NCBI RefSeq assembly: GCF_025717555.1
Contig: NZ_JAJIRP010000002.1
Location: 124,001 to 188,000, forward strand
DNA: 64,000 nucleotides
Direction: 5' to 3'
Source of the DNA: Paucibacter sp. B2R-40
GTDB lineage: Bacteria > Pseudomonadota > Gammaproteobacteria > Burkholderiales > Burkholderiaceae_C
The notes under the pieces were generated by a model. That model was not told where the DNA came from. It did not search any database and saw nothing but the letters and a program-made list of their open reading frames with translations. Shown here one piece after another: positions 36,079-50,331 of this stretch (positions are counted from its first letter, which is position 1; each line of letters opens with the position of its first letter). Position numbers and translations under genes: made by a program.

Positions 36079-36557
36079 GTGGTGCTCCCGGCTTGCAGTG
36101 CGGTGGCGGCGCGCTCAATGGCGGCGCGCACGCGCGGGTAGGTGCCGCAACGGCAGAGATTGCTCATCGCCGCCTTGATCTGCACCTCACTGGGGCGGCG
36201 CTGCTCGGCCAGCAGCGCGGCGGCGGCCATCAGCATGCCGGACTGGCAGTAGCCGCATTGCGGCACCTGCTCGTCCAGCCAGGCCTGCTGCAGCGCGCGG
36301 CCGATGCGGCTCTGGTCCAGCGCCTCAATGGTGGTGATGCGGCGGCCCTTGAGCGCTTGGATGGGCAGCACGCAGCAGCGCGTCGCGGCACCGTCGATAT
36401 GGACGGTGCAGGCGCCGCACTGGGCTGCGCCGCAACCGAACTTGGTGCCGGTCAGCGCCAGGTCTTCGCGCAGCAGCCAGAGCAGCGGTTTGTCGGGCGC
36501 TGCCTGGACGCGGTGCGTCTGGCCGTTGATCTGCAATTGCATGGCTTTGGGTTTCAT
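36075..36557 (-). CDS. [2Fe-2S]-binding subunit of a molybdenum hydroxylase (IorA-like)
   Basis: Protein of 160 residues with two [2Fe-2S] clusters: the plant-ferredoxin type (GCGAAQCGACTVHIDG, with a further Cys near RCCVLPI) and the helical type (CGYCQSGM, then NLCRCGTY). It carries electrons from the molybdenum subunit encoded by the next gene, which overlaps by four bases. The upstream metallo-hydrolase gene ends 18 bp before it, suggesting one operon. Confidence 0.92.
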   Translation of the reverse strand: MKPKAMQLQINGQTHRVQAAPDKPLLWLLREDLALTGTKFGCGAAQCGACTVHIDGAATRCCVLPIQALKGRRITTIEALDQSRIGRALQQAWLDEQVPQCGYCQSGMLMAAAALLAEQRRPSEVQIKAAMSNLCRCGTYPRVRAAIERAATALQAGSTT

Positions 36558-36575
36558 CGGTGTGCAGCCTGTCGT

Positions 36576-37550
36576 TCAAGGTGTCGTCGTGGCCGGCGCT
36601 ATCGCGGCGTAGTCGACAGGCACCCAGATGTAGTTGAGCCCCAGCGAGCGCAGGCGGCCGATGCCTGGGAAGGCCAAGTGCGCTCCCGCGATCAGCTCAT
36701 CGCTGCGTGCTGCTGCGGCGAACTCACGGTTGCGCAGCGCGATGCCCTGGGCTGCGTCCTTCTCGCCCGGCGGAACGGCCTCAGGCAGCTCGAACTGCAC
36801 CTTGTCGTTGACAACGAAGTCGCCCCAGAAGTGCATGCGCTGCCCCCGGCTTTCGATCACGTAGAAGCTGTGGCCCTCGGTGTGGCCGTAGCGGGCCACA
36901 GCCTTCAGCTCAGGCGAGAAGCGGGTGTCGCCGTCGAAGGCCTGGTAGCGCTGAGCGCTGATATAGGGCGCCAGCTTGGCGACGATCGCCTGCGCGGTCT
37001 TGTTGCCCTTGGCTGCGGCGGCCTGCCATTGCGGCAGTTCGTGCGCGTCGGCATGCACCACCGCATTGGGAAACGAGCGCTGCTTGCCATCGGCCAGGCC
37101 GAAGACATGGTCGGGGTGCATATGGGTGATGTAGATATCGTCCACCTGCTCCGGCGCATAGCCGGCCGCCTTCAGGTTGTCGAACAACTGGCCGTAGCCC
37201 GCCGCGCTGCCCCGGCCGCCCGCATCGATGAGGATCAGCTTCTTGCCGGTGTTCACCAGAAAGGCGATGGTCGAGAAGTCGTTGCTGGGCTGCGCTTGGG
37301 TGCGCCGGCGCAGGCTGGCCTTGTGCTCGACCGTGAGCGAGGGAAACAGCTCGTCGATCGCCTCCGGCCAGGGGTCGTTGGCATCCAGCAGTGCCGTCAC
37401 TTCCAGGTCCCCCACCATCAGCCGGTAAAAGCCCGGCGCCTGGCTCCTGGCCATCGGAGCGGCCGCGTGGGCGGCCGGCAGTATTGCCGCGATCGCCAGC
37501 ATCAAATAGGCCCATCGAGGCCAGTTAAGAAGATCACGAAGGTGTTGCAT
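36576..37550 (-). CDS. MBL-fold metallo-hydrolase, exported
   Basis: Protein of 324 residues with a signal peptide ending AAHAAAP near residue 31. The metallo-beta-lactamase motif THMHPDHVFGL (HxHxDH) and downstream His residues (VVHADAHE, RYGHTEGHSF) mark the binuclear metal site. Such exported MBL proteins include lactonases and other hydrolases; the substrate is unknown. It is first in a likely operon with the IorA/IorB-like subunits and divergent from a LytS/LytTR system, which may regulate it. Confidence 0.87.
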   Translation of the reverse strand: MQHLRDLLNWPRWAYLMLAIAAILPAAHAAAPMARSQAPGFYRLMVGDLEVTALLDANDPWPEAIDELFPSLTVEHKASLRRRTQAQPSNDFSTIAFLVNTGKKLILIDAGGRGSAAGYGQLFDNLKAAGYAPEQVDDIYITHMHPDHVFGLADGKQRSFPNAVVHADAHELPQWQAAAAKGNKTAQAIVAKLAPYISAQRYQAFDGDTRFSPELKAVARYGHTEGHSFYVIESRGQRMHFWGDFVVNDKVQFELPEAVPPGEKDAAQGIALRNREFAAAARSDELIAGAHLAFPGIGRLRSLGLNYIWVPVDYAAIAPATTTP

Positions 37551-37663
37551 GAGACGGTGCCGGGCGGCATGGTTGGACGGAAGGCGCAGTATGGGCAGCC
37601 GGCGCCGCGCGATCCAGGCCTGTGGTACAGGTACGGTCAGTCGTGTTACGAATCCGCGCGGGT

Positions 37664-38851
37664 ATGAGCGATCATGGCGACCTGCTCGCAGTCAAGCCCA
37701 ACCCAACATCGATGAGCCCAGCTATCCCTACCGACCCCGAGACCTCGGCCGCACAAACCGCGCCGGGATCGGTGCTGCGTGTCGTGCTGGCGAATGGGCT
37801 CGTCTGGGGCGTGATCTGCAGCCTCGGCGCGGCGGGCGACTACCGCGATGGCGCGCGGCTCGGCCACGCGGCCAATTTCCTGCGCGTCTGGGGAGCCTGG
37901 CTGAATGCACATGTGCCGCTCTTCGTGCTGAGCGTTGCGCTGATGCTGGTGCTGCCGCGCATCCAGGACCGCTGCTTAGGCGGGCGGGCTATCGCCAGCC
38001 TTTATGGGGCGTTGGCCCTGCTGTACTTTCCGCTGCACATGATCTACACCGCAGTGCCGGGCTGGCTGGCGCGAGGCGACGGGCAAAGCCTGATCGGCTA
38101 TGTGCTGCAGCGGGATAACTTCACCTGGTTTCTCGAGTTCGCCTGGTTCAGCGGCACTTATGCGGTCGTGATGGCCATCCACATCTGGCGGCTCGGCCAG
38201 CAACGCGCCGCCGAGCTGCAGGCCGCGCGTGAGGCCAATCTGGCGCTTGAACTGGCGCTGGAGCGGCAGCGCCTGCACGGTATGCGCCAGCAGCTGGAGC
38301 CGCACTTCATCTTCAATGCGCTCAACAGCATCAGCGCCTTGGTGCGCAGCAACGAGCAGCCGGTCGCGCTGGAGGGCATTGCGAGCCTGAGCACGCTGCT
38401 TCGCTACGCGCTGAAGGCCAGTGCCCAGGATGCGGTCTGCCTCGGCGAGGAGATCGCCTTCTGCCACGACTACCTCGACCTGCAGCAGATGCGCTACGGT
38501 ACGCGCCTGCAGCTTACGTTCGATGACCCAGGCCCAGCAATCGAGCGGGTCGAATGTCCGCCGCTGCTGCTGCAGCCGCTGATCGAGAACGCCCTGCGTC
38601 ACGACCTGGATCGGCACACCGGACCAACCCAGCTGACCTTGCAATTCCACCTCGACAGCACCCGTTTGAAAATCCGGGTGTGGAACTCCCTGGCTCAGCG
38701 CGGCCCGGCCAATGCCGGACTCGGCCTGGGGCTGGCGCATGCGCGCGAGCGGCTTGCGCTGATGTATGGTTCGCGTGCGGTCCTAGCGACCCACGAGACG
38801 CCGTCGAGTTTCGAGGTCCGCGTCGAACTACCGATCAGCATTTCCGAATGA
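37664..38851 (+). CDS. LytS/AlgZ-type sensor histidine kinase
   Basis: Protein of about 395 residues with four membrane helices (residues about 35-175), a short coiled region and the His_kinase family domain: LEPHFIFNALNSISALVR with the phospho-accepting His, then LLQPLIENALRHDLDR and the glycine box GLGLGLAHARERL. It signals to the overlapping LytTR regulator. ATG 37664 is used; ATG 37712 is an alternative. The signal is unknown. It is divergent from the metallo-hydrolase/molybdenum hydroxylase operon. Confidence 0.9.
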   Translation: MSDHGDLLAVKPNPTSMSPAIPTDPETSAAQTAPGSVLRVVLANGLVWGVICSLGAAGDYRDGARLGHAANFLRVWGAWLNAHVPLFVLSVALMLVLPRIQDRCLGGRAIASLYGALALLYFPLHMIYTAVPGWLARGDGQSLIGYVLQRDNFTWFLEFAWFSGTYAVVMAIHIWRLGQQRAAELQAAREANLALELALERQRLHGMRQQLEPHFIFNALNSISALVRSNEQPVALEGIASLSTLLRYALKASAQDAVCLGEEIAFCHDYLDLQQMRYGTRLQLTFDDPGPAIERVECPPLLLQPLIENALRHDLDRHTGPTQLTLQFHLDSTRLKIRVWNSLAQRGPANAGLGLGLAHARERLALMYGSRAVLATHETPSSFEVRVELPISISE

Positions 38852-39663
38852 CAACGCCATCCGACGACAGCTCAACAACGAAGACGATTCGCGCGCTCGT
38901 GGTCGACGACGAGGAACTCGGGCGGCGCAATCTCTGCCTGGCGCTGGCTGAGCATGCCCATTGGGAAGTGGTCGCCCAAGCGCCGAGCATGGCGGCAGCG
39001 CAAGAGGCTCTGCGCGCGCAGCCCGACATCGAGGTGGTCTTTCTGGACATCCGCATGCCCTATGGCTCGGGCCTGGAGCTGGCGCAAGTACTCGCTCAGC
39101 AGGAGCAACCGCCCTGGATCGTGTTCGTCACCGCCTTCGACGAGCATGCGATCGAAGCCTTCGATCTGCACGCGCTGGACTACCTCCTCAAGCCCTTCAG
39201 CAACCGGCGTCTGGCGAAAGCGCTGGCCCATGTTGAGCAGATGGTGCGGCTGCGCCAGCAGGTCGCCTTCGCCGGCGCGCTGCGCAGCTATGTCGAGGAC
39301 GCGCAGCGCAGCCCGCAAGCGGGCAAAAACTACTGGAAGACGCTGAGCGTGCGCTCGGTGGGCCGAATCGACGCCGTCTCGCTGGACGAAGTCCTGCGCA
39401 TCGAGGCGCAGGGCAATTACGCGGCGCTCCACCTGCCCACACGCCAGTTGCTGTTCCGTGCGTCGATGACACGCCTGGAGCAGCACCTCGATCCGGCAGT
39501 CTTCCTGCGCGTACACCGCGGCACCATCGTGCGGCGAGAGCAGGCGCTGTCATTGCTGAGCATGCCCAGTGGAAGCTACGAATTGAGGATGCGTGATGGG
39601 TCGCGGGTGGCCGTCAGCGAGCGCTATGTCACTGCCGTCAAGGTGGCGCTGCAAACTGGCTGA
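38848..39663 (+). CDS. LytTR-family response regulator
   Basis: Protein of 271 residues. The receiver domain (about 14-125) has VVDDEELGRRNL, the phosphoacceptor in VVFLDIRMPYGSG and LKPFS. The C-terminal LytTR DNA-binding domain (about 165-270) includes EVLRIEAQGNYAALHLP and FLRVHRGTIVRREQ. ATG 38848 overlaps the kinase stop (ATGA), which fixes the start. LytTR regulators bind paired short repeats; a likely target is the divergent hydroxylase operon. Confidence 0.92.
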   Translation: MTTPSDDSSTTKTIRALVVDDEELGRRNLCLALAEHAHWEVVAQAPSMAAAQEALRAQPDIEVVFLDIRMPYGSGLELAQVLAQQEQPPWIVFVTAFDEHAIEAFDLHALDYLLKPFSNRRLAKALAHVEQMVRLRQQVAFAGALRSYVEDAQRSPQAGKNYWKTLSVRSVGRIDAVSLDEVLRIEAQGNYAALHLPTRQLLFRASMTRLEQHLDPAVFLRVHRGTIVRREQALSLLSMPSGSYELRMRDGSRVAVSERYVTAVKVALQTG

Positions 39664-40270
39664 TGCCGCATTCACTCCAAAGCGCGCTGGACGGAAATGG
39701 TCGTTCCGCAGGACCAAGGTCCTCGGTGTTCCCTGATGGATACGTCCAAACCTGTGCCAGGCGTTGGCAAATGCCAACTGGTCAGGTTCAGCCACAAGCG
39801 TGACGAGGGCGAGTTCATCGCAGGCAAGTTAGACGCTGCAAATCTTCCTTGTCCGGTCGACAAGCTCGTCGGCACTTCAAAGGAAGAAGTACTTGTCGTT
39901 CCCCAGCGGCACAATGCTGCCGCGAGAAGGCGGCTTGCAGAGCCCCAAGCCCAGGTCGCCCAGCGAGAGCCGATTGCGACGCTGCAGGGATCCCAATATG
40001 CCCGGCTCAGGTTGACTGGTGAGTACAAATAGCATCTTTGTATGCCCCTAAGAAAAACGGCTTCGCTCGGTCTCAGCAGTCGTGCAAATATTGTTGATTG
40101 GTTGTGTCTTGAATTTGCCGGCCATATGAGAACCCGCAGGCAGAAGCCCCCGCCAAGGATCCGCTCAGCTGAAATTTGCCGCGCCGCTAAGGTTTTTTCA
40201 AGCGTCATACAAACAACAACGCCCGGCTTACCCGTGCCTTGTTGTTTGTCGAAGTGCAATAGTCGCCGCG
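39664..40270. other. AT-richer stretch without a convincing gene
   Basis: About 600 bp between the LytTR regulator and the cytochrome c gene. Base composition is visibly less GC-rich than the flanks, especially 40020-40260. Open frames on both strands (up to 195 codons, 39672-40259 minus) lack recognisable protein features or good starts and have atypical residue use. It may be a decayed gene or acquired DNA. An inverted repeat lies at 40209-40249. Confidence 0.5.
40209..40249. repeat. Inverted repeat downstream of the cytochrome c gene
   Basis: ACAAACAACAA (40209-40219) pairs perfectly with TTGTTGTTTGT (40239-40249) across a 19-base loop. It lies about 20 bp past the cytochrome c stop on the minus strand and may act as a terminator, although no clear T run follows. 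Confidence 0.55.
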
Positions 40271-40696
40271 CTACTTCACGCTGGCGAGAAAAGCCAAGAG
40301 ATCTGCCCTGGCACGAGGATCGCTCAAGCCCTCGAACTTCATCGTTCCGCCGGGCAAGGCCAGCTTGGGTGCGCTGATATAACTATCTACTTTCTCAGCA
40401 GTCCAGGACCATTTGCTGGCCTTCATCGCGTCGGAGTAAGCCACCCCCGCCAGGCCCGCAGCCGGGCGGCCCAACAGCGCAAACAGGCTCGGGCCTTTTT
40501 TGTTTTTGCCCTCTTTGAGACTATGGCATTCAGCGCATTGGGTGGCAAACACATCGGCCCCCTTCTGGATCTCGCCTTCGGCGCAAGCGCTGATGCTGGC
40601 GGCGCAGCAGGCCAGGGCGAGCAGCGCGGTCTTCAACGTTGAGAAACTGGGTATTGGCAAGCACAATTGCTTGCGGCTGTTGGCAAATGGGTCCAT
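40271..40696 (-). CDS. Class I monohaem cytochrome c
   Basis: Protein of 141 residues. A signal peptide is followed by the haem-binding motif CAECH in FATQCAECHSLKEG, KKGPSLFALLGRPAA and the probable axial Met in GTMKFEGL, a cytochrome c2/c550-like arrangement. The signal region ends SISACAEG, which fits either an ordinary peptidase site or a lipobox (ISAC), so membrane anchoring is possible. ATG 40696 is preferred because AGGTG lies about eight bases upstream; GTG 40708 is the alternative. Last gene of the Cyc2-like operon; likely periplasmic electron carrier. Confidence 0.9.
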   Translation of the reverse strand: MDPFANSRKQLCLPIPSFSTLKTALLALACCAASISACAEGEIQKGADVFATQCAECHSLKEGKNKKGPSLFALLGRPAAGLAGVAYSDAMKASKWSWTAEKVDSYISAPKLALPGGTMKFEGLSDPRARADLLAFLASVK

Positions 40697-40708
40697 CTCG
40701 ATGAGCAC

Positions 40709-42058
40709 CTAGAAGGATGTCCAGGCGAACAGGAACAAGGTGTTGTTGTCAGCGGCATTGCGGCCCGCGCCGTCATAGTTTTTGGCGGCGCCGTTGTACT
40801 TGCTGTAGCGCGTGTACTGAGCGCCCAGCTTCACGTTCGCCCATGGCGCGCCCCAGGAGTCTTCCTTGCCGAAGGGCGTCCAGTCCAACTGCAGGATTTG
40901 CCCGGCACTGTCGGGGACATTGCCAGCATTGGCGGCATACAAAAGACTGTCGGCCGTTCCATCGGTACGGAAATGCCCCAAGGACAAGCCCCAACTTTGA
41001 TTGAAATGGTAGGAGGCATTGAGCTTGAGCTCGTTCAGGCTGCCATTCAAGTTGCTGGCTTCACCTGCGGCCAGCAAGGCGTCGCGGCGCTGAGTTTCGT
41101 GCACGTAGCTGCCCTGCAAGGTAAAGACATGTTCGCGTGTGCCCAAGAACTGGTATTGCCCGTCAATGCCGATGTCACGGTAGCGGTTGCTGCCACTTCC
41201 ATTGGTGCGATCAGGCTGGATGCTGCTGTTGAAGCCGAACAGCCCGACCGAATAGGCGCTGCTCTTCAAGTCCTTGAACCAAGCCAGTCGCCAGTAGGCA
41301 GTGCCATTGCCGAGTTTGCCCGGATCATCTTCCCTGCCCAGACCCAAACGAGATTGCGCCGTCAGCGACAGGCTGCGATAACTGCCTAGTTCTGCGTACC
41401 AGCTATTGTCCAAAAAGGCATAGGCGGAGGCGCCCAGTACATGCTGCTCCAGAGCACCATTGATCAAGGTGCCCGTCTCAGGGCCGCTGAATCCCAGCGC
41501 CGAGCCGATATAAGGGAAGCCCCAGACCGGCATGCTGTTGAACGGGTCTTGCACGCCGGGGTTATTGTTCAGCGATGCGCCCAGGATCAGCTCCTTGCCC
41601 TGCCATTCGGTGGCGTGAGCAAAGCGCAGATCCATTTGGTCGATGGCGGTCTTTTTGCCAATGCCGTCATAAGTGACTTGCATGAAGGCGCCGAGCTGAT
41701 CGGCCAGCTTGCCGGCAATGAAGAGCGAGGCTTCATCCAAGGCTGCGTTGTCATTGGTTTTATAGCCGTCGACCGGCGCTGCGTCTTGCGCCTTGCCCGT
41801 GTGAGTGCGTGAAGCCACCACCATGCCGGACAGCGGCACATTGCCGCTGCTGCCATTGCTGTCGGTGTAGCCGCCAATCTTGAACTTGATGCCGAAGGGC
41901 GTGAGCTGTGGGCCAAAGGCGCCGATATGACATGCGGCACAGTCCTGCCCGGTCTGGCGCGCAAAACTGGGCACGGCCCAGCTGGTCGTGGCGCTCAAAA
42001 GCCCCGCTGTCAGGCCCGCGAGCAGCGCGCAGCGTCGCAACAATCTATGCATATTCAT
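40709..42058 (-). CDS. Cyc2-like outer-membrane cytochrome (monohaem domain fused to beta-barrel)
   Basis: Protein of 449 residues. A signal peptide cleaves near SWA|VP. The mature N-terminus has PSFARQTGQDCAACHIGAFG followed by PQLTPFGIKFKIGGYT, with one CxxCH (Cys40, Cys43, His44). The rest is a predicted porin-like barrel of alternating strands ending in Phe (FAWTSF). The FARQTG-CxxCH-P-L-FG-FK-GY pattern is, from knowledge of the family, that of Cyc2, the outer-membrane Fe(II) oxidase of iron oxidisers, and its wider relatives. Neighbours are cytochrome c and cytochrome b561. Function in iron oxidation is unproven. Confidence 0.8.
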   Translation of the reverse strand: MNMHRLLRRCALLAGLTAGLLSATTSWAVPSFARQTGQDCAACHIGAFGPQLTPFGIKFKIGGYTDSNGSSGNVPLSGMVVASRTHTGKAQDAAPVDGYKTNDNAALDEASLFIAGKLADQLGAFMQVTYDGIGKKTAIDQMDLRFAHATEWQGKELILGASLNNNPGVQDPFNSMPVWGFPYIGSALGFSGPETGTLINGALEQHVLGASAYAFLDNSWYAELGSYRSLSLTAQSRLGLGREDDPGKLGNGTAYWRLAWFKDLKSSAYSVGLFGFNSSIQPDRTNGSGSNRYRDIGIDGQYQFLGTREHVFTLQGSYVHETQRRDALLAAGEASNLNGSLNELKLNASYHFNQSWGLSLGHFRTDGTADSLLYAANAGNVPDSAGQILQLDWTPFGKEDSWGAPWANVKLGAQYTRYSKYNGAAKNYDGAGRNAADNNTLFLFAWTSF

Positions 42059-42124
42059 AGTGATGAATTCTCAAAAAGGTGATGGGAAGGAAGTGAAAGC
42101 CGTGCTCGAAAGTTCTTGGCTGCA

Positions 42125-42694
42125 TCAAGCACGGCGCCAGCCTGGCAACATGGCGCTCAAGACCTGGTCTCGGCGCACCCATTGATGCCAGGCAACCGCC
42201 AGCAGGTGCAAGGCGATCACCGCGGCCAACAACCAGGCCACATTGCCGTGCACCGCTTCGAGTGTTTCGGCCAGGTCCAGGTCGGTGGCCAGCAGACGCG
42301 GCAAATGAATTGACCCCAAGCTGACGACGTGGCCGCGTGCATTGCTCAGCAAGAAGCCCAGAGGCGGCAAGCTCAGCAGCAGCAGGTAGACCAGCCCATG
42401 CATCGCGCCGGCCAGGCGGCGTTGCCACGCGCTCGCTTGATCCAGCGTGTCGGCCAACTTGAAGCGGCTGCGCAGCAGCAGGCGCAGCAGCGTCAAGGCT
42501 CCGACGAGAAGCCCAGCCAAGCGATGCCATTGCAAGACGGAAGCACGCAATCGGTCTTCATCCAAGCAATCGCGACCGATGATCAGGGCAAAAACCAGCA
42601 GCAGCGCCATGACCGTGAGCCAATGGGCATAGACGATAGGTCGGGGATGGCGCAAGTCAGCTGCGGTACGGACAGGAGCAGGTATCGAACTCAT
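42125..42694 (-). CDS. Cytochrome b561-family membrane protein
   Basis: Protein of 189 residues with four membrane helices and histidines placed for two b haems: YAHWLT (near residue 24), LQWHRLAG (57), AMHGLVY (99) and ALHLLAVAWHQWV (162-170), with VHGNVAW between. This fits the bacterial cytochrome b561 family, which passes electrons between the quinone pool and periplasmic or reactive acceptors. It sits between a two-component system and the Cyc2-like gene, all on the minus strand, so it may be the inner-membrane end of the electron path. Confidence 0.9.
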   Translation of the reverse strand: MSSIPAPVRTAADLRHPRPIVYAHWLTVMALLLVFALIIGRDCLDEDRLRASVLQWHRLAGLLVGALTLLRLLLRSRFKLADTLDQASAWQRRLAGAMHGLVYLLLLSLPPLGFLLSNARGHVVSLGSIHLPRLLATDLDLAETLEAVHGNVAWLLAAVIALHLLAVAWHQWVRRDQVLSAMLPGWRRA

Positions 42695-42745
42695 GCGGGC
42701 TTCTCAGGAATCCAGAAAACCCGAGGCTAGGCCCCCCCTGCCTTC

Positions 42746-42766
42746 AAAAGCCTGACAAATTCAGGC
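42746..42766 (-). terminator. Possible attenuator hairpin between the kinase and cytochrome b561 genes
   Basis: On the minus strand GCCTGA-ATTTG-TCAGGC (42766-42750) forms a 6-bp stem followed immediately by TTTT. It begins six bases after the kinase stop. The stem is short, so partial termination, or use as an operator for the b561 promoter, are both possible. Confidence 0.4.
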
Positions 42767-42771
42767 GGCGC

Positions 42772-44166
42772 TCACGCGACTACGGGGAAGTTGACCGTCA
42801 CTTGCAGACCTTTGCCGCCTGGCCCGCTGCCCAGACTGACCTGTGCGTCGTGACGCAAAGCTACCTCGCGCACAATGGCCAAGCCCAGGCCGCTGCCGAG
42901 CTTGGAGGCCGCGTCGATCTGGTAAAAGCGCTCAAACACCTTGTCGTGCTCCAGCGGGTCAATGCCCGGTCCCTCGTCTTCGACGCCCAAGAAAGCTCTG
43001 CGATCGGGCCGCGTACCGCAGCGCACGGTGACCTTGCCGCCGGGGTCGCAATGACGGATGGCGTTGTGGATCAGATTGCCCAGCATTTCTTGCAGCAGCC
43101 AGGCCGAGCCATTGACAAAAGCCGGGCTGGCCTCAAAGCCCAAGTCCAGGCCGGCCTCCAAAGCGGCATCAAGCCAGCTGGACGCAGCGTCCTCCAGCAA
43201 GACTTGCAAGTCCAAACGCTGCAAAGTCTCGGCCTGAACCGCTTGCGGGCCGGAGCGCGCCAAGGCCAGCATTTGATGGGTCGATCGCGCCAGCCGCTGC
43301 AATGAAAGCTTCAAATTTGTCAGGCGCTGACGCTGCGTTTCATCGGCATCCCGCTCGGCCAAGTCGAGTTGCATCTGCATGCCGGCCAGGGGCGTGCGCA
43401 ATTGATGCGCCGCATTGGACAGAAAAGCCTGCTGAGCTTCGGTGGAGACACGCAAATTGGCGACGAAGCCGTTGATCGCACTGACCAGCGGAAGCAAATC
43501 GGCCGGCAACTGATCTGTAGCGATTGCACTGAAGTCTTCTGCTTGCCGGGCAGCCACTGCTTGGCTCAGCTCATCCAACGGTTTCATCGCCAAATGCACG
43601 CCTAAGCGGACCAACAGCAGCGCCAGGCTCAGCAGCACCAGATTGGGAACCACCGTGTCCATCATGACCAAGCGCGCTTGCGCCTCGCGGCGCTGCAGCG
43701 TCTCAGCCACAACGATGCTGAGCGCCCCCAGCGCGGACGCATGCGGATAGGTGATGACGCGCACCTGCGCGCCGCCTAAGCGATGGTCAGCAAAGCTCGG
43801 CTGAGTGTGCGCCTGCCTATCGAGCACCTTCGCCAGTGCTGGATCGCCGCCAATGACGGCGCCCTGCTCGGTGCGCACCAGAAAATACAGTTGATCCTTC
43901 CCATCTGCGATCTGCATTGCGCGCATGGTGCGCTCCAGATGCAGGCCGAGGTCATCATCGGCTGCGTCGTCCGCGTCCACATCCAGGCGCGAAGCCAAAG
44001 CGATCGCAACCCGGGCGAGCGCCTGGTCCTGGTTGTCGCTGGCCCGCTCAAGGGCGCGCACATAGTCGTAAACGGCACTGAGCAAAATCACCAGCAAGAG
44101 CGGCCACAGAAGCAGGCGCAACAGGCGGTCGCGCAGACTCAAATGCTGTTCGCGCATGGCACTCAC
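42772..44166 (-). CDS. Sensor histidine kinase (QseC/PmrB-like)
   Basis: Protein of 464 residues. It has an N-terminal helix (about 12-30), a periplasmic segment of about 130 residues with an acidic stretch (DVDADDAADDD), a second helix near 170-190, a HAMP-like linker, HisKA FLSNAAHQLRTPLAGMQ with the phospho-accepting His, and HATPase motifs NLIHNAIRH, DEGPGIDP and GSGLGLAIV. It overlaps the response-regulator gene. It probably controls the downstream cytochrome genes. The acidic loop could bind metal ions, which is inference only. Confidence 0.92.
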   Translation of the reverse strand: MSAMREQHLSLRDRLLRLLLWPLLLVILLSAVYDYVRALERASDNQDQALARVAIALASRLDVDADDAADDDLGLHLERTMRAMQIADGKDQLYFLVRTEQGAVIGGDPALAKVLDRQAHTQPSFADHRLGGAQVRVITYPHASALGALSIVVAETLQRREAQARLVMMDTVVPNLVLLSLALLLVRLGVHLAMKPLDELSQAVAARQAEDFSAIATDQLPADLLPLVSAINGFVANLRVSTEAQQAFLSNAAHQLRTPLAGMQMQLDLAERDADETQRQRLTNLKLSLQRLARSTHQMLALARSGPQAVQAETLQRLDLQVLLEDAASSWLDAALEAGLDLGFEASPAFVNGSAWLLQEMLGNLIHNAIRHCDPGGKVTVRCGTRPDRRAFLGVEDEGPGIDPLEHDKVFERFYQIDAASKLGSGLGLAIVREVALRHDAQVSLGSGPGGKGLQVTVNFPVVA

Positions 44167-44825
44167 ACGTCGATGCGGTAGCCGATACCACGCACGGTGC
44201 GGATGGTGATGCCGCTGTCAGCAAACTTGGCGCGCAAACGCGAGATATAGATCTCGACCGCGTTATCGGTGATCTCTTTGTCCCAGCGGCTGAGGCTGTC
44301 GGCCAAGCGCCGTTTAGCGATCACCTTAGGGGCGGCCAGCATCAGCGCCTGCATCAAGTGCCATTCCCGCCCCGTCAACGCCAGCGGCTGGCCAAACAGC
44401 TGGGCCGCATGCGTCGCCAGATCGAGGGTCAAAGGCCCGGCCGTCAAGCGGGCGGTCGCAACCGAGCGACTGCGCCGAATCAATGCCTGCACCCGCGCCA
44501 ACAATTCAGGCCATAGAAAAGGCTTGATCAGGTAGTCGTCAGCGCCCTCGTTGAGCCCGCTGACCCGGTCCGACAAGCCGTCGCGTGCCGTCAAAATCAA
44601 GATTGGCAGCGTATGCGCGGCGGCCCGTACGTGACGCACCAGACTCAAGCCATCCATGCCTGGCAGACCGAGGTCAAAGATCGCCAGATCATGCACTTGG
44701 TGACCCAAGGCATCCAGCACCTGTTCCGCACTGCCCAAGTGATCCATTTCATAGCCGGCCCGCCCCAGCGCTTCGCGCAGGCCGGCGGACAGCAATTCAT
44801 CGTCTTCAACCAGCAATATGCGCAT
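44163..44825 (-). CDS. OmpR-family response regulator (QseB/PmrA-like)
   Basis: Protein of 220 residues. The receiver starts MRILLVEDDELL, with the phosphoacceptor in LAIFDLGLPGMDGLSLV and the conserved KPFLWPELL. The winged-helix output domain ends IRTVRGIGYRIDV. ATG 44825 is chosen because the receiver begins there. It is the first gene of the minus-strand group leading to cytochrome b561, the Cyc2-like protein and cytochrome c, and overlaps its kinase gene by four bases. Confidence 0.93.
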   Translation of the reverse strand: MRILLVEDDELLSAGLREALGRAGYEMDHLGSAEQVLDALGHQVHDLAIFDLGLPGMDGLSLVRHVRAAAHTLPILILTARDGLSDRVSGLNEGADDYLIKPFLWPELLARVQALIRRSRSVATARLTAGPLTLDLATHAAQLFGQPLALTGREWHLMQALMLAAPKVIAKRRLADSLSRWDKEITDNAVEIYISRLRAKFADSGITIRTVRGIGYRIDV

Positions 44826-44840
44826 CGGGGGCAGGGGCAG

Positions 44841-44865
44841 AATTAAACAGGCTGGACATCCAGCC
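44841..44865 (-). promoter_or_regulatory. Promoter and palindrome upstream of the response regulator
   Basis: GGCTGGA-CA-TCCAGCC (44850-44865) is a perfect 7-bp inverted repeat. On the minus strand it is followed by TTTAAT, a plausible -10 element about 15 bp before the ATG. The palindrome would lie between -35 and -10, a good operator position. Confidence 0.45.
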
Positions 44866-45004
44866 GGGCCAGACCAAGCTGGCCGCAGCGGCCGCGCAAA
44901 CTGCGGAAGCCTCGGTTGATTGTCCACGGTTGCGCGCGCCTGCCGTTTGCCCGCCATCAATCAAATCCATGCCCGCTTGCCCGGTTCAAGCGGCGCAGGC
45001 AAGC

Positions 45005-45271
45005 CTATTGGCCCGCTCCCCAGCGCCAGCGCGGCCGCTCACCCTTGCGCCAGCAAATCAGCATCAGCAAGGCCGTCAACACCGTAACGCACGCCACATA
45101 GCTGAGGGGCTGCCGCTCGGGCGACAGCAGGGCCGCCGCCAGCACCATCAAGGCGGCATAAGCGCTCAGCACCAACCAGCCTTGCCAGCGGACCGGCAAG
45201 CCCCAGCCCCAGCCATAGCGTTTGGCCGGGAACCAAGTATTCTGCTTTTTGAGGTCGATTTCTTCGGCCAT
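45005..45271 (-). CDS. Small two-helix membrane protein of unknown function
   Basis: Protein of 88 residues. It starts MAEEIDLKKQNTWFPAKRYGWGWGLP, then two hydrophobic helices (about 30-50 and 56-74) and a basic Trp-rich end. I recognise no named family, although the Trp-Gly-rich N-terminus looks conserved. It begins 20 bp after kup on the same strand and is probably co-transcribed. No other clue to function. Confidence 0.65.
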   Translation of the reverse strand: MAEEIDLKKQNTWFPAKRYGWGWGLPVRWQGWLVLSAYAALMVLAAALLSPERQPLSYVACVTVLTALLMLICWRKGERPRWRWGAGQ

Positions 45272-45291
45272 GACATTGCTACGGTTTGATC

Positions 45292-47199
45292 TCAGATCTG
45301 CACCCGTGTGCCCAATTCCACCACCGCGTTGTCAGGCAGGCAGAAGAACTCGGCGACGCCGCCGGCATTGCGGCTCATGGCCGCAAACAGATGCTCGCGC
45401 CAGGGCACCATGCCTTCGCCGGCAGTCGGCACCACCGTCTCGCGGCTGAGGAAGTAACTCGTTTCGAACGCGGAGATGTGCAGGCCCTTGGCGGCACACA
45501 GGGCCAGCGCCTTGGGCACATCGGGCTGATCCATAAAGCCAAAATGCAGGCCCACGCGCCAAAAACTCGGTGCCAGCTCCTGCAACTCGACCCGCTCTTC
45601 ATCGGGCACCCAGGGGCGGTCCTGAAACACCACGGTCATGATGACGTTTGTCTCATGCAGGACCTGGTTGTGTTTGAGGTTGTGCAGCAAGGCCTGCGGC
45701 ACGGTATCGGGGTTGGCCACGGCGTAGACGGCGGTGCGCAGGGCGCGGTGGGTGTCGGCTCCGCCCAACGACTCGAGAAAGGGCTGCAACTCCAGACCAT
45801 CGCGCCGGATGCTGCCCATCAGCAAGGCCCGGCCGCGCGACCAGGTGCTCATCACCACAAACAGACCCAGCGCAAAGGCCAGCGGGAACCAGCCGCCGTC
45901 CACGAACTTGATCGCGCAGCCCGCTACCAAAAGCAGGTCCAGCGCCAGGAAAAACAGCGTGGCCGAGATCGCGATCGGCGCCGGCAGGCGCCAGCCATGG
46001 CGCACCACAAAAAAGGTCAGCACAGTGGTGATCAGCATCGTCATCGTCACCGCGATGCCGTAGGCGCCGGCCAGCGCCGAGCTGCTGCCGAACAGCAGCA
46101 CGGCAGCCACCACGCCGACCAGCAAGGCCCAGTTGACCGCCGGGATATAGATCTGGCCGGCCTCGCTGGCGGAGGTGTAGCGCACCGTCATGCGTGGCAG
46201 GAAGCCGAGCTGAATCGCCTGCTTGGTCATCGAATAGGCGCCCGAGATCACCGCCTGTGATGCGATCACGGCGGCCAGCGCGGCCAAGATCACCACCGGC
46301 AACATCAAACTGTCGGGGAAAAGGCGGTAGAACGGATTTTCGATCGCGCTGGGGTCACCGATCAGCAGTGCGCCCTGGCCCATATAGTTCAAGGCCAATG
46401 CCGGGAACACCAGCGTGGTCCAGGCCAAGCGGATAGGCTTGGCGCCGAAATGGCCCATATCGGCATATAGCGCCTCGGCGCCGGTCAGCGCCAGCACGAT
46501 GGCGCCGACGGCGGCGAACACATGCCAGCCGCGCGCCATCAAAAATTCCCAGGCATGCAGCGGGTTCAAGGCGGCCAGCACCTGCGGCTGCGCCTGAATA
46601 TGGATCACGCCAATCACCCCCAGCAGCACGAACCACAAGGTGATCACCGGGCCGAATACCTTGCCCATCGCATGCGTGCCGAAGCGCTGCAGCATGAACA
46701 GCGCGGCCAAAATCGTCAGCGAAATCGGCAGCACATAGGGCTTGAGCGTCGGCGTCAGCACCTCCAGCCCTTCGATCGCCCCCATCACCGAAATGGCCGG
46801 CGTGATGATGGAATCGCCATAAAACAGCGTGGCGCCGAACACTCCCAGCAAGAGCAAGCCCTTGTGCAGACGCGCCCTGCCCGTGCCGACCGCCTTGGCG
46901 GCCAGCGCCGTCAAGGCCAAGCCGCCGCCCTCGCCGCGGTTGTCGGCGCGCAGGATCAGGATCACGTACTTGAGCGTCACCACCAGCATCAGCGCCCAGA
47001 TGATCACCGACACCGCGCCGATCAGATTGGCCTGATTCAGCGCTACGCCGGTGGCGGGCAGGAAGATTTCCTTGACGGTGTAGAGCGGGCTGGTGCCGAT
47101 GTCGCCATAGACGACACCAATGGCTCCGAGCGTTAGCGCCGGCAAGCCTTGGCGCTGCGGATGGCCGGAAAGGGGGGAGACAGAACTGGCGGAGGACAT
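45292..47199 (-). CDS. kup: Low-affinity potassium transporter Kup
   Basis: Protein of 635 residues of the KUP/HAK family. The N-terminal signature [20 protein letters not shown] and [16 protein letters not shown], and about twelve helices, are followed by a cytoplasmic domain of about 180 residues. It takes up K+ with protons. ATG 47199 ([12 protein letters not shown]) is supported by an upstream purine-rich region and homology; the frame is open further upstream through the promoter. Three 11-bp direct repeats lie 50-80 bp upstream, suggesting control by an OmpR-family regulator. Confidence 0.95.
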
Positions 47200-47351: not shown

Positions 47352-47422
47352 ATGTCAGGAAGAACATACGCCAAGAAACGCCGCACTTCTGCTTCTGCTC
47401 AACCCTTTTGCCCAAGGCCATC

Positions 47423-48100
47423 ATGAAACTCAGCACGCTCCTCGCCTCCCTGACCCTGTTGACGGCGTTCGCGCCGCTTGGCGCTCACGCCACGAGTTAT
47501 GACAGCAACCTGATCGTCAGCGGCGATGCCGAGTCAGGCACCACGGCGTGGAACGCCATTGCCGATACCGCGATGTTCCAGACCGTGGCCTACGCTGACC
47601 CCTTGTTCCTGTACCCGGACACCGCGCATGGCGCGCGGCACTTTGCCGGCAGCAGCGGCAGCGCCTTTTCTGCCGGCTGGCAGCAAGTCGATGTGAGCGA
47701 CAAGGCCGCTGACATCGACGGTGGCGGCCTGGCGTTCAAGCTCGATGCCTATCTCGGTGGCGTCGGTGACCAGGAAGACAACACCTTGTTGTATGTCTCC
47801 TTTCTCGACGCCAAGGGCAATGAAATCAACCACACCGAGCTGGGCCCCAACTACGTCGACCTGCGCGACTACTACACGGTGCTGGCCGCCTTTCACACCA
47901 GCGGCTATGTCCCCGAGCAGACGCGCGCGATCCGCTTCGACCTGTCCATGGATGCCCCCGACGGCAACGCCAGCGGCGCCTACGCCGACAACCTGTCCTT
48001 CAGCCTGACCACGCCGGCCGTGCCCGAGCCGCAAAGCTATGCGCTGATGCTGGCAGGTCTGCTCGCCGTGGCTGCGGTGGCACGCCGCCGCGCACGCTGA
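47423..48100 (+). CDS. PEP-CTERM domain protein, exported
   Basis: Protein of 225 residues with a signal peptide ending GAHA, a central region resembling a carbohydrate-binding beta-sandwich (VSGDAESGTTAWN, DNLSFSLTTP) and the C-terminal sorting signal VPEPQSYALMLAGLLAV followed by ARRRAR. PEP-CTERM proteins are processed by exosortase and are linked to extracellular polysaccharide or biofilm production. ATG 47423 (MKLSTLLASL) begins the signal peptide. No exosortase gene is in the window. The next gene, 44 bp later on the same strand, is a phospholipase C. Confidence 0.88.
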   Translation: MKLSTLLASLTLLTAFAPLGAHATSYDSNLIVSGDAESGTTAWNAIADTAMFQTVAYADPLFLYPDTAHGARHFAGSSGSAFSAGWQQVDVSDKAADIDGGGLAFKLDAYLGGVGDQEDNTLLYVSFLDAKGNEINHTELGPNYVDLRDYYTVLAAFHTSGYVPEQTRAIRFDLSMDAPDGNASGAYADNLSFSLTTPAVPEPQSYALMLAGLLAVAAVARRRAR

Positions 48101-48144
48101 ATCCACTCATTAGGTCTCACCTTTCAAGCTACAGGCAGCCCATC

Positions 48145-50331
48145 ATGACTCAAAGTTCACGTCGCAGATTCCTCCAATCGGCCGCCACCGGCGCCGCCCT
48201 CACCGCCTTCCCGGCGGTGATCCAACGCGCGCTGGCCGCGCAAGCCAAGGTTGTCACTGGCACCATCCAGGACGTCAAACATGTGGTGATCCTGACGCAG
48301 GAGAACCGCTCCTTTGATCACTACTTCGGCACGCTGCACGGCGTGCGCGGCTTTGGCGACCCGCTGCCGCTGCCAGTGGTTGACCGCCCTGGCACCATCG
48401 TGCGCAAGAACATCTGGGTGCAGCCGACCGAGCCGAGCAACAGCGTGAGCAACCCTACCGTGCCGGGCCGCACACAACCCAAGACCGTGGCGCCGTTCCG
48501 GCTCAACACCAAGCTCAACTTCAACCTGATGCGGGTAGACGGCACGCCGCATGGCTGGGGGGATCTGCATTGGGACCAGGGCCGCATGAACTACTGGACC
48601 CTGACCAAGCACAACCATTCGATGGGCTACTTCGCCAAGGAGGACATCCCCTTCCAGTTCGCGCTGGCCAATGCCTTCACGGTCTGCGACGCCTATCACT
48701 GCTCGCTGGCCGGCTCGACCAACCCGAACCGGCTCTTCCTCTTCACCGGCACCAACGACCCGCTGGGCCGTAGCGGTGGTCCGGCTGTCAGCAACCGCAA
48801 TGACTGGTTCGACAACCTGCCCGACTACACCTGGACGACTTACCCCGAGCGCCTGCAGGCGGCCGGCATCTCCTGGCAGGTCTACGAGAATATGGACGAC
48901 AACTTCACCGACAACTCGCTGGTCGGTTTCAAGTCCTTCCGTGACGGCTGGTTCAACCGCCCCGGTGCCTCGGCCGAGCTGAAGGCGCGCGGCATCACGA
49001 CACGCGATCTGGATCTGCTGCGCCAGGACGTCGTCAATGGCACGCTGCCCCAGGTATCCTGGATCGTCGCCACCGAAGCCGGCTCCGAGCATCCAGGCCC
49101 GTCCAGCCCGGCCCAAGGTGCTGAATACACGGCCAAGGTGCTGGAAGCGCTGACGGCCAATCCGGAGGTCTGGGCCAGCACGGTGCTGTTCATCAACTTC
49201 GACGAGAACGACGGCTTCTTCGACCATATGCCGCCGCCGGCTGCGCCTTCGCTGGTTCAATGGGACGCCGATCCGGCCAAGCGCGTCTACGCGGGCGCCT
49301 CGACGGTGGCCACCACCGGCGAATACCACGAGGTCGAGAATCCCAACAGCCCCGCACCCAGCACGCTGCACTGGCCTTACGGCCTGGGCGCACGCGTGCC
49401 GATGTATGTGGTGTCACCGTTCAGCAAGGGCGGCTGGGTCAACTCGCAGGTGTTCGACCACACCTCGGTGCTGCGTTTCATGGAGCAACGCTTCGGCGTG
49501 ATGGAACCGAATATCTCGGCTTGGCGCCGGGCGGTTTGCGGTGATCTGACCAGCGCCTTCAACTTCGCCAACCCGAACAACAGCACGGCCTTCATGGCGC
49601 AGTTGCCCGACACCAAGGCGCTGGCCGACAAGACCCGGGCTTTGAACAACCCGACCAAGCCGCGCCCGACCCTGCCAAGCACCTTGACCTTGCCGGCGCA
49701 AGACAGCGGTGTGCGGCCCTCCTCGGCACTGCCCTATGAGCTGGCGGCGACGGCATGGGTCACGGCCACGGCCGTCAATGTCAGCTTCCAGAACACCGGC
49801 AAAGCCGCCGCCGTGTTCCATGTCTACGACCGCCTGCGCCTGGCCGAAATCCCGCGCCGCTACACCGTCGAAGCCGGTAAACAGCTCAGCGGCAGTTGGG
49901 CTGCCGATGCCAACGGTGCGTATGACCTGTGGATACTGGGGCCTAACGGTTTTCACCGTCATCTGACCGGCAATGCCGGGCGCCTGAAGGCGGCAACTCA
50001 AGCCAACCCGGAAGTGCAGATCAGCTGTGACAGCGTCAGCGGCGACCTGCTCGTGAAGTTGCTCAACAGCGGCAACGCGCCTTGCGTGTTCCAGCTGGCC
50101 GCCAACCGCTACAGCGCGGCCACGGTCAGCGAGTACACGGTGCTCGCACGCGGCGAAACCAATCTGCGCCTGCCGCTGGCGCAAAGCTACCGCTGGTACG
50201 ACTTCAGCGCCAAGGTGAAGGACCAGGCCGACTTCAGCCGCCGCTTTGCCGGTCGGGTGGAAACGGGTGCACCGTCGGTCAGCGACCCGACCATGGGCGG
50301 CAGCGCCCGCGCCGACCAATGGCAGGTCTGA
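48145..50331 (+). CDS. Phosphocholine-specific phospholipase C (PlcN/PlcH family)
   Basis: Protein of 728 residues. A Tat signal SRRRFLQSAATGAALTAF opens the protein. The phosphoesterase domain starts HVVILTQENRSFDHYFGTLHGVRGFGDP and includes INFDENDGFFDHMPPP. Two C-terminal domains of about 80-90 residues each (from about 525) match the DUF756-type repeats of this family. It hydrolyses phosphatidylcholine or sphingomyelin outside the cell or in the periplasm, releasing phosphocholine. It follows the PEP-CTERM gene and converges on the KdpE-like regulator through a strong hairpin. Confidence 0.93.
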   Translation: MTQSSRRRFLQSAATGAALTAFPAVIQRALAAQAKVVTGTIQDVKHVVILTQENRSFDHYFGTLHGVRGFGDPLPLPVVDRPGTIVRKNIWVQPTEPSNSVSNPTVPGRTQPKTVAPFRLNTKLNFNLMRVDGTPHGWGDLHWDQGRMNYWTLTKHNHSMGYFAKEDIPFQFALANAFTVCDAYHCSLAGSTNPNRLFLFTGTNDPLGRSGGPAVSNRNDWFDNLPDYTWTTYPERLQAAGISWQVYENMDDNFTDNSLVGFKSFRDGWFNRPGASAELKARGITTRDLDLLRQDVVNGTLPQVSWIVATEAGSEHPGPSSPAQGAEYTAKVLEALTANPEVWASTVLFINFDENDGFFDHMPPPAAPSLVQWDADPAKRVYAGASTVATTGEYHEVENPNSPAPSTLHWPYGLGARVPMYVVSPFSKGGWVNSQVFDHTSVLRFMEQRFGVMEPNISAWRRAVCGDLTSAFNFANPNNSTAFMAQLPDTKALADKTRALNNPTKPRPTLPSTLTLPAQDSGVRPSSALPYELAATAWVTATAVNVSFQNTGKAAAVFHVYDRLRLAEIPRRYTVEAGKQLSGSWAADANGAYDLWILGPNGFHRHLTGNAGRLKAATQANPEVQISCDSVSGDLLVKLLNSGNAPCVFQLAANRYSAATVSEYTVLARGETNLRLPLAQSYRWYDFSAKVKDQADFSRRFAGRVETGAPSVSDPTMGGSARADQWQV

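Follow-up and report, generated by a model that had tools for sequence, protein, structure and literature searches.

Cyc2 is a fused cytochrome–porin whose published definition combines an AXPXFAR[Q/K][T/Y] sequence, a CxxCH heme motif, a PxL motif, a length of at least 365 residues and a 16-stranded porin (PMC8406198). In the rus operon, the genes are ordered cyc2-cyc1-cup-coxBACD-rus, with a cytochrome c following cyc2 (PMC10654088). Homologues of Cyc2 in bacteria not known to oxidize iron have already been published; their role in iron or other electron transfer has been stated as open, and genetics in iron oxidizers has proven hard (PMC8406198). Here we describe a five-gene locus encoding a Cyc2-like protein at positions 40271–44825 of a 64,000-nucleotide stretch of Paucibacter sp. 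B2R-40 DNA (contig NZ_JAJIRP010000002.1, positions 124,001–188,000; hereafter the window). Sequence comparison and structure modeling suggest that this operon quite probably specifies an electron conduit built on Cyc2, spanning the entire cell envelope and controlled by its own dedicated two-component switch. The promoter element that precedes its electron-transfer genes is new here, and a literature search that left subscription journals and preprints mostly outside its reach found no description of either the operon or the element. With respect to cyc2 together with b561, two papers concern a b561–diheme fusion beside mto, not the window operon (PMC5566968), and an unrelated co-occurrence (PMC10512742).

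Results

Composition of the operon

The initial annotation had placed five genes on a single strand, and all five open reading frames (ORFs) are indeed present on the minus strand of the window, where they and their main parts are located as follows.

44163–44825, minus strand: OmpR-family response regulator (PF00072 and PF00486)
42772–44166, minus strand: sensor histidine kinase (PF08521 2CSK_N periplasmic domain, HisKA, HATPase)
42726–42757, minus strand: predicted regulator-activated promoter in the kinase–b561 gap (17-mer at 42741–42757 plus a CTA-containing -10-like box)
42125–42694, minus strand: inner-membrane cytochrome b561 (PF01292, E 8e-24; invariant His; match to 5OC0)
40709–42058, minus strand: Cyc2-family fused cytochrome–porin of 449 amino acids (motif, profile comparison, tree, 16-stranded model)
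41867–41977, minus strand: heme segment of this protein, residues 28–64 (AVPSFARQTG..CxxCH..PxL..FK..GY)
41504–41569, minus strand: residues 164–185 of this protein, loop between strands 5 and 6 (motif in common with a rusticyanin-linked Cyc2; putative L3 position, from topology)
40271–40708, minus strand: class I monoheme cytochrome c (PF00034; invariant CxxCH and axial Met)

The regulator and kinase genes share 4 bases, and the reading frame of cytochrome c starts directly after the stop codon of the cyc2-like gene, which gives the locus an operon-like arrangement. GTG at 40708 is the longest start option for the cytochrome c gene, whose start codon is tentative. The genome (G000) comprises 5.6 Mb in 50 contigs with a completeness of 100, and the operon lies on contig C12.

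The Cyc2-like protein

The 449-residue protein, well above the published minimum length, contains a single CxxCH (CAACH, residues 40–44) that follows, by eye, a signal-like N terminus. The sequence AVPSFARQT stands ahead of this motif in agreement with AXPXFAR[Q/K][T/Y]. The PxL motif is present as PQL and is offset by one, beginning 5 residues after the CxxCH His versus 4 in the published consensus; the window protein's group mostly shows spacings of 5 or 3 residues, and the Gallionellaceae-type Cyc2 a spacing of 4 (family f25, an assignment taken from the text of PMC8406198 and from sequence). The structure model places the heme segment on a 16-stranded barrel (pLDDT 90, pTM 0.86). The FARQTG-CxxCH-P-L pattern that the initial annotation had called a Cyc2 hallmark agrees with the published definition apart from the one-residue shift of PxL, and its picture of one heme motif behind a signal peptide, followed by a barrel, is borne out by a confident model where the lack of a barrel would have spoken against it. 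The protein is predicted to lie in the outer membrane.

Family searches contributed little to this assignment. No Pfam or NCBIfam family matched the protein at E ≤ 1, Pfam searches with all 54 members of set A2 hit four families, each through a single member (best E 0.0065), and a search against PDB sequences gave one match at E 0.042, the best E in a second search being 0.096.

In terms of conserved residues, K60 is present in 97% of the window protein's group and in 100% of the Gallionellaceae-type Cyc2, and is a candidate heme-stabilizing or distal residue; R257 and D299 are likewise conserved on both sides. Conservation of the heme motif itself must be read with the caveat that the loci were picked for having it. 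The window protein and a rus-type Cyc2 (L181, introduced below) are alike in the NNxPxVxDxW..PxWG.P motif between strands 5 and 6 and in a C-terminal YDGxGRNAxDNNTL. Neither motif was found in the three f25 rows compared, and f25 shows 0% conservation at the N164, N165 and N174 columns. Porin topology suggests that the strand 5/6 loop is L3, the constriction loop.

Placement relative to known Cyc2

Cyc2 of the f25 type was matched in 42 of 60 genomes of family f25, at loci that typically read CxxCHxxHFPxL; a scripted search found no protein of that type in 7 of 30 f25 loci. When compared by hhalign with a profile of 21 f25 Cyc2, the window protein aligned with a probability of 99.6 (E 7e-24) over 242 columns that reach into the barrel, its C-terminal part being left unaligned. 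The f25 type forms one side of a 100/100-supported branch in a tree of 75 proteins.

In the search for a rus-type Cyc2, rusticyanin was sought in 369 class-mates and seven stretches from four genomes were then examined, one of which (L181, from genome G380) contained a Cyc2. The genes at L181 run cyc2, a family-less ORF, coxB, coxA, a second family-less ORF, ctaA, ctaB and a rusticyanin-like cupredoxin. The Cyc2 of this locus is 33% identical to the window protein over 457 positions (E 3e-75) and falls on the same side of the tree (branch 100/99), on a long end branch (1.17) and with no well-defined position within that side. With respect to the Cyc2 phylogeny for which the initial annotation had called, the window protein thus groups with no non-redox family and belongs to the same large group as the Cyc2 of a coxBA-ctaAB-rusticyanin-like operon.

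One very long-branched row, L020, was included in the tree with L181 and flagged. This distant relative (G057:C32) carries AIPAFARMYGMACGACHSAFPALN in a 522-amino acid frame, has an end branch of 4.5 and possibly represents another heme-barrel family.

Predicted promoter element

The gap between the kinase and b561 genes contains a TGTCAG-N5-TGAAGG direct repeat (the 17-mer at 42741–42757) followed by a CTA-containing -10-like box. An 11-base direct repeat ahead of a -10-like box is the layout that an OmpR-family activator would use. A comparison of sequences upstream of the regulator gene for shared k-mers yielded no clear operator there, the element appearing upstream of b561 instead; it was traced from the divergent intergenic regions of L057–L059, which match the kinase–b561 gap of the window. 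The resulting template, TTGTCAG-N3-TTTGAAGGC, was shaped by the window, its near copy L029 (genome G003) and L057–L059, which are therefore not independent instances. In the 302 bases before b561 codon 24, the window and 17 loci score 11–16 out of 16 against this template and nine others score 8–10, and among 810 shuffles a score of 11 was reached in 3.3% and a score of 12, the maximum, in 0.4%.

The distribution of the element follows the type of regulator. Homologues of the regulator and kinase lie upstream in 23 of the 80 homologous loci described below, and the element is found in all 19 loci with a regulator 48–72% identical to that of the window and in none of the four with a regulator 38–39% identical. 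It mostly stands right behind the kinase stop codon, and is present also in L051 and L061, where no b561 was found, and in L068, where b561 is replaced. Of 99 sequences, 23 contain a strict form of the pattern, located at the operon in 18 and elsewhere in 5. The number expected from single-base shuffles is 0.6, although the five matches away from the operon show these shuffles to be a lenient control. At the scale of whole genomes, YGTCAGKNNNNYGAAGG occurs once in G000 and once in G003, in each case at the operon, and has no match in the reversed control. A longer pattern allowing at most two mismatches gave no sign of a wider regulon (14 matches versus 15 in the control for G000, 8 versus 13 for G003), and a scan for sigma-70 promoters and terminators did no better than shuffles.

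Eight further order-mate loci, three of them already in the set (L046, L058 and L068), provided no new independent positive. Two of the new loci have a two-component system (L213 and L217, with regulators 40% and 35% identical to that of the window) and, as predicted, no site before the operon genes, the best score of 12 being located elsewhere.

The single operator-like site per genome and the split of 19 of 19 versus none of four make the regulator look dedicated to the operon, and the regulator presumably binds the element. The co-variation of element and regulator type supports the control by the adjacent sensor that the initial annotation had proposed.

The two-component system

The nearest NCBIfam models of the regulator are PmrA (203 bits, cut-off 330) and QseB (184.5 bits, cut-off 345), and those of the kinase are QseC (171 bits, cut-off 475) and PmrB (154.9 bits, cut-off 314), all below their cut-offs. 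Acidic residues in the kinase sensor domain are conserved among 20 operon kinases; the comparison included one non-operon kinase only, which has three of these residues in common. It is conceivable that this acidic periplasmic loop senses metal, as had been suggested from the first reading of the sequence.

We take the CTTAA-N6-CTTAA direct repeat to be the PmrA/QseB-type box. No such box exists in window positions 40201–45300, which sets the operon apart from the QseBC/PmrAB pattern, and the repeat was rejected as the window operator for that reason. Elsewhere, 30 loci together contain 11 copies of TTAA-N7-TTAA, whereas single-base shuffles average 0.85. Such a box stands directly upstream of the first operon gene in L053, L060, L064, L066 and L067, adjoins a second two-component system in L040 and L041, and lies elsewhere in L063 and, as a second copy, in L064. 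The L064 and L066 copies have no two-component genes beside them and may be controlled by an unlinked regulator.

Redox partners and neighborhoods

The b561 protein shows His24, 57, 149, 163 and 170 to be invariant in all 27 aligned sequences and matches the CybB structure 5OC0 (E 6e-11). PF01292 and the conserved His agree with a CybB-type b561, and the score against the NCBIfam equivalog PRK11513 (50.7 bits) does not reach the cut-off of 170. The CxxCH and axial Met of the cytochrome c are invariant in 46 of 46 aligned sequences, the protein being nearest to mitochondrial-type and c2 cytochromes. At L068, from a Rhodocyclaceae metagenome-assembled genome, the b561 slot between kinase and cytochrome is occupied by a 189-amino acid NapC/NirT tetraheme protein (PF03264, E 2.5e-67). 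CymA is a member of the same family, and from this one locus we argue that the b561 slot is the quinone connection. A NapC/CymA-type protein in this place also suggests a way to link a Cyc2 to the quinone pool.

For the surrounding genes, we examined all of the best 80 of at least 593 relatives. Upstream sequence is shorter than 3 kb in 11 of these loci, which makes the counts lower bounds, and downstream cytochromes were counted even where their longest ORF overlaps cyc2. The complete five-gene set recurs in 17 of 80 loci; all genes point the same way in 13 of them, and the two-component genes are divergent in the other 4 (among the latter, L060 has a different type of two-component system). 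A b561 gene lies directly upstream of the cyc2-like gene in 25 loci, every one of which has a monoheme cytochrome c downstream. A cytochrome of this kind is found downstream in 37 of the 80 loci and upstream in 5 more. The combination of genes, for which the initial annotation named no precedent, is thus more than chance, and the closer relatives show a strong association with the cytochromes.

None of the operon's companion genes was found in 38 of the 80 loci. Carrier classification, which covers part of these, showed a HiPIP-like neighbor at two loci, slightly short of the Pfam cut-off (L077, E 7e-4; L104, E 4e-4), a cupredoxin at four (L076, L078, L110 and L113) and a diheme cytochrome c at one (L107). 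No electron carrier was seen nearby in several loci, including L065, L073 and L074. Among plasmids, nine records match, and a c-type cytochrome gene is close by in all eight examined; on the Paraburkholderia OLGA172 plasmid it lies upstream with one gene between. Judged from these neighborhoods, the partner of the cyc2-like gene varies, yet stays an electron carrier. Gene clusters present in at least five loci, beyond the operon families, cytochromes and probable antisense shadow, were generic by eye (ABC ATPase, SDR, aldehyde dehydrogenase and enoyl-CoA hydratase among them), and none was tied to the operon.

Some individual loci merit separate mention. In L063, L072 and L086 (Gallionellaceae, Thiobacillaceae) the cyc2-like gene and cytochrome c are followed by a second monoheme protein, which in L063 is a cytochrome c' (PF01322), and by a diheme protein. 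L024, L027 and L028 carry the cyc2-like and cytochrome c pair with a transposase adjoining, on plasmids of Acidiphilium and Acidithiobacillus ferrooxidans; the cyc2-like gene of A. multivorum pACMV3 is annotated as two ORFs.

Distribution and possible mobility

The distribution of homologues is patchy. In the genus they occur in 3 of 18 genomes, among them G010, which has a different type with a diheme cytochrome; across the order, 34 of 399 genomes carry one at E ≤ 1e-60, a figure that counts the window genome itself. In the sister species G003 the operon is complete, with 84% DNA identity across window positions 40270–44828, and the 33.9 kb of its operon contig that were compared contain no other match to the window (blastn, E 1e-20, >150 bases). 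The kup gene, a neighbor of the operon in the window, is located in G003 on a different contig; the stretch around it lacks the operon and matches the right side of the window to position 45016. This pattern of similarity indicates that the unit differing in place ends at the operon edges.

Beside the operon, and convergent with it, window positions 37622–39663 on the plus strand encode a sensor kinase and, by eye, a LytTR-looking response regulator. At E ≤ 1e-60 this kinase is found in only two of the 18 genomes of the genus, which marks the adjoining stretch as accessory too. Positions 33808–37550 encode a molybdenum hydroxylase pair (MoCoBD large and 2Fe-2S small subunit) and, ahead of it in the same orientation, an MBL-fold protein whose nearest match is the AidB lactonase (113.6 bits, below the cut-off of 360). 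Positions 47408–50331 encode a protein with a PEP-CTERM-like C terminus and then a Tat-type phospholipase C-like gene, both assigned by eye.

Discussion

Proposed mechanism

The path from the cell surface through cytochrome c to a b-type heme in the inner membrane, as envisaged in the initial annotation, is in keeping with the gene content, the conserved order, the barrel model and the heme motifs. In the mechanism that we propose, a signal at the periplasmic face would activate the kinase, and the phosphorylated regulator would bind TGTCAG-N5-TGAAGG in the kinase–b561 gap, thereby inducing the genes for b561, the Cyc2-like protein and cytochrome c together. The Cyc2-like protein would form a 16-stranded outer-membrane pore with its heme segment at the opening to the periplasm. 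The pore would admit a small redox solute, Fe(II) or another reduced metal being the most likely candidate, and this solute would meet the conserved constriction loop and exchange an electron with the heme. The class I cytochrome c would serve as periplasmic carrier, b561 would couple the cytochrome c pool to the inner-membrane quinone, and the cytochrome could also feed terminal oxidases. Iron is our best guess as substrate because three tested Cyc2 oxidize iron and a rusticyanin-linked relative falls in the same group. As to direction, we lean slightly toward inward as the main flow of electrons and consider a mainly outward flow rather unlikely.

Several observations weigh against this reading. 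With respect to the Cyc2 assignment, the window protein is far from the Gallionellaceae-type Cyc2 (branches of ~1.5 on each side), and the references in the tree are the f25 type and L181, none of them a named, biochemically tested Cyc2. G324, the sole genome above the rusticyanin cut-off, had no Cyc2 in the three stretches examined. The rusticyanin match of G380 lies just below that cut-off (137 versus 146.7 bits), and L181 has the published rus gene order but no recognized cyc1. In terms of gene content, b561 is concentrated in the nearer relatives (24 of 31 loci L039–L069 versus 1 of 49 loci L070–L118), which makes the gene set variable. Two-component genes are not nearby in 8 of the 25 b561 loci (upstream sequence is missing at L055), and L051 and L061 possess a two-component system and the element with no b561 found. 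The five-gene set does not form one clade, since its label has to change 8 times on the tree and well-supported branches force at least 3 of these changes, and the exchange of b561 for NapC/NirT is seen at a single locus. With respect to the element, a 2.3-kb scan of 57 loci without the system reached scores up to 13, overlapping L051 (12) and L054 (11); given such chance scores, the score alone does not separate these two loci, whereas position and the strict pattern do.

On the side of physiology, a search for the RuBisCO large chain gave no match in the host genome, which is thus not that of an autotrophic iron oxidizer by that route; the operon may serve as a supplementary source of electrons, for detoxification or as a valve to the outside. 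The potential of a class I cytochrome c is normally above that of ubiquinone, and electron transfer from cytochrome to quinone would be uphill. The same thermodynamic doubt has been stated for MtoD, and ImoA, placed like CymA, has been proposed to reduce quinone (PMC13390432).

Alternative explanations

One alternative is an outward conduit, in which b561 (or NapC/CymA) would oxidize quinol and pass electrons through cytochrome c to the Cyc2-like heme, where a metal or a quinone-like solute inside the pore would be reduced. Such a conduit would act as a safety valve or in the response to stress. Proteins of the b561 and NapC/CymA types are quinone-linked and transfer from quinol to cytochrome c is downhill; the NapC/NirT protein in the b561 position of L068 and the lack of a RuBisCO large-chain match in the host fit such a role, and hosts such as Zoogloea, Azoarcus and Derxia are not known as iron oxidizers. 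Nonetheless, the three biochemically tested Cyc2 oxidize iron (PMC8406198) and a member of the group sits beside cytochrome oxidase and rusticyanin-like genes, and we regard this account of the operon as unlikely.

Protection from metal or oxidative stress earns somewhat less credence. Here Fe(II), Cu(I) or superoxide would be removed at the envelope, with b561 acting like the superoxide oxidase CybB, under metal induction through a PmrAB/QseBC-like sensor and with no energy conserved. The match of b561 to CybB 5OC0, the proximity of regulator and kinase to the PmrA/QseB and QseC/PmrB models (below cut-offs) and the conserved acidic residues of the sensor domain would suit this role, but a cytochrome c and a heme pore accompany b561 in all 25 loci, and a superoxide oxidase needs neither. 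An ordinary solute porin, in which the heme merely stabilizes or gates the pore and the linked cytochromes are coincidental, is very improbable given that a redox carrier is a recurrent neighbor across classes, with the type of carrier exchanged, and that the heme motif is kept (in loci chosen with that motif).

Returning to the Cyc2-based conduit under its own switch, a broader proposal can be offered tentatively, at somewhat less than an even chance. The operon may be a mobile, self-regulated cassette of ~4.6 kb through which bacteria not known to oxidize iron exchange electrons with soluble metals via a single-heme pore wired to quinone. In such a cassette Cyc2 would take the position that MtoAB/PioAB occupies in other systems, the inner-membrane (b561 or NapC/CymA) and periplasmic parts would be exchangeable, and sensor and operator would be its own. 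Our analysis suggests that bacteria not known as iron oxidizers carry a self-contained electron-exchange device, and the operon is a separate unit open to testing in, for example, Azoarcus and Zoogloea, or in Derxia, which has the form lacking two-component genes. With a single predicted operator in the window genome, a reporter could be used to look for the inducing signal, and that signal would point to the substrate.

Comparison with known systems

The window protein has the motif, single heme, length and 16-stranded barrel in common with described Cyc2 (PMC8406198; PMC7029218). It differs from the Gallionellaceae type in its distant position on the tree, its NNNPxVxDxWNxxPxWG loop and its NYDGxGRNAxDNNTL C terminus, and from described Cyc2 in being encoded alongside b561 and a two-component system of its own. 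At the rus-like L181, the Cyc2 belongs to the window protein's large group and has the loop and C-terminal motifs in common with it; relative to the rus operon, however, the window operon has b561 in place of an oxidase and a mitochondrial-type monoheme cytochrome in place of the diheme Cyc1. Regulation differs as well: the window has an OmpR-type two-component system inside the operon, whereas rus is bound by RegA, the global redox regulator of the RegBA system (PMC5506826). QseBC and PmrAB provide the best NCBIfam matches of the window system, below equivalog cut-offs, and the predicted element of the window is TGTCAG-N5-TGAAGG, not CTTAA-N6-CTTAA.

The mtoABD-cymA/imoA system of Sideroxydans has a like layout, with an outer-membrane pore–cytochrome, a periplasmic monoheme protein and an inner-membrane quinone-linked cytochrome (PMC5566968; PMC13390432). 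Unlike the decaheme, 26-stranded mto conduit, that of the window would have one heme in a 16-stranded barrel, with b561 instead of a tetraheme protein. The inner-membrane part of L068 is of the NapC/NirT family, to which CymA belongs. Finally, Cytbc, a b561–diheme fusion beside the mto operon, provides a precedent in which a b561 domain has been proposed as the quinone-active partner of an outer-membrane conduit (PMC5566968); there it is fused to a diheme cytochrome c, whereas in the window it is a separate b561 protein beside Cyc2.

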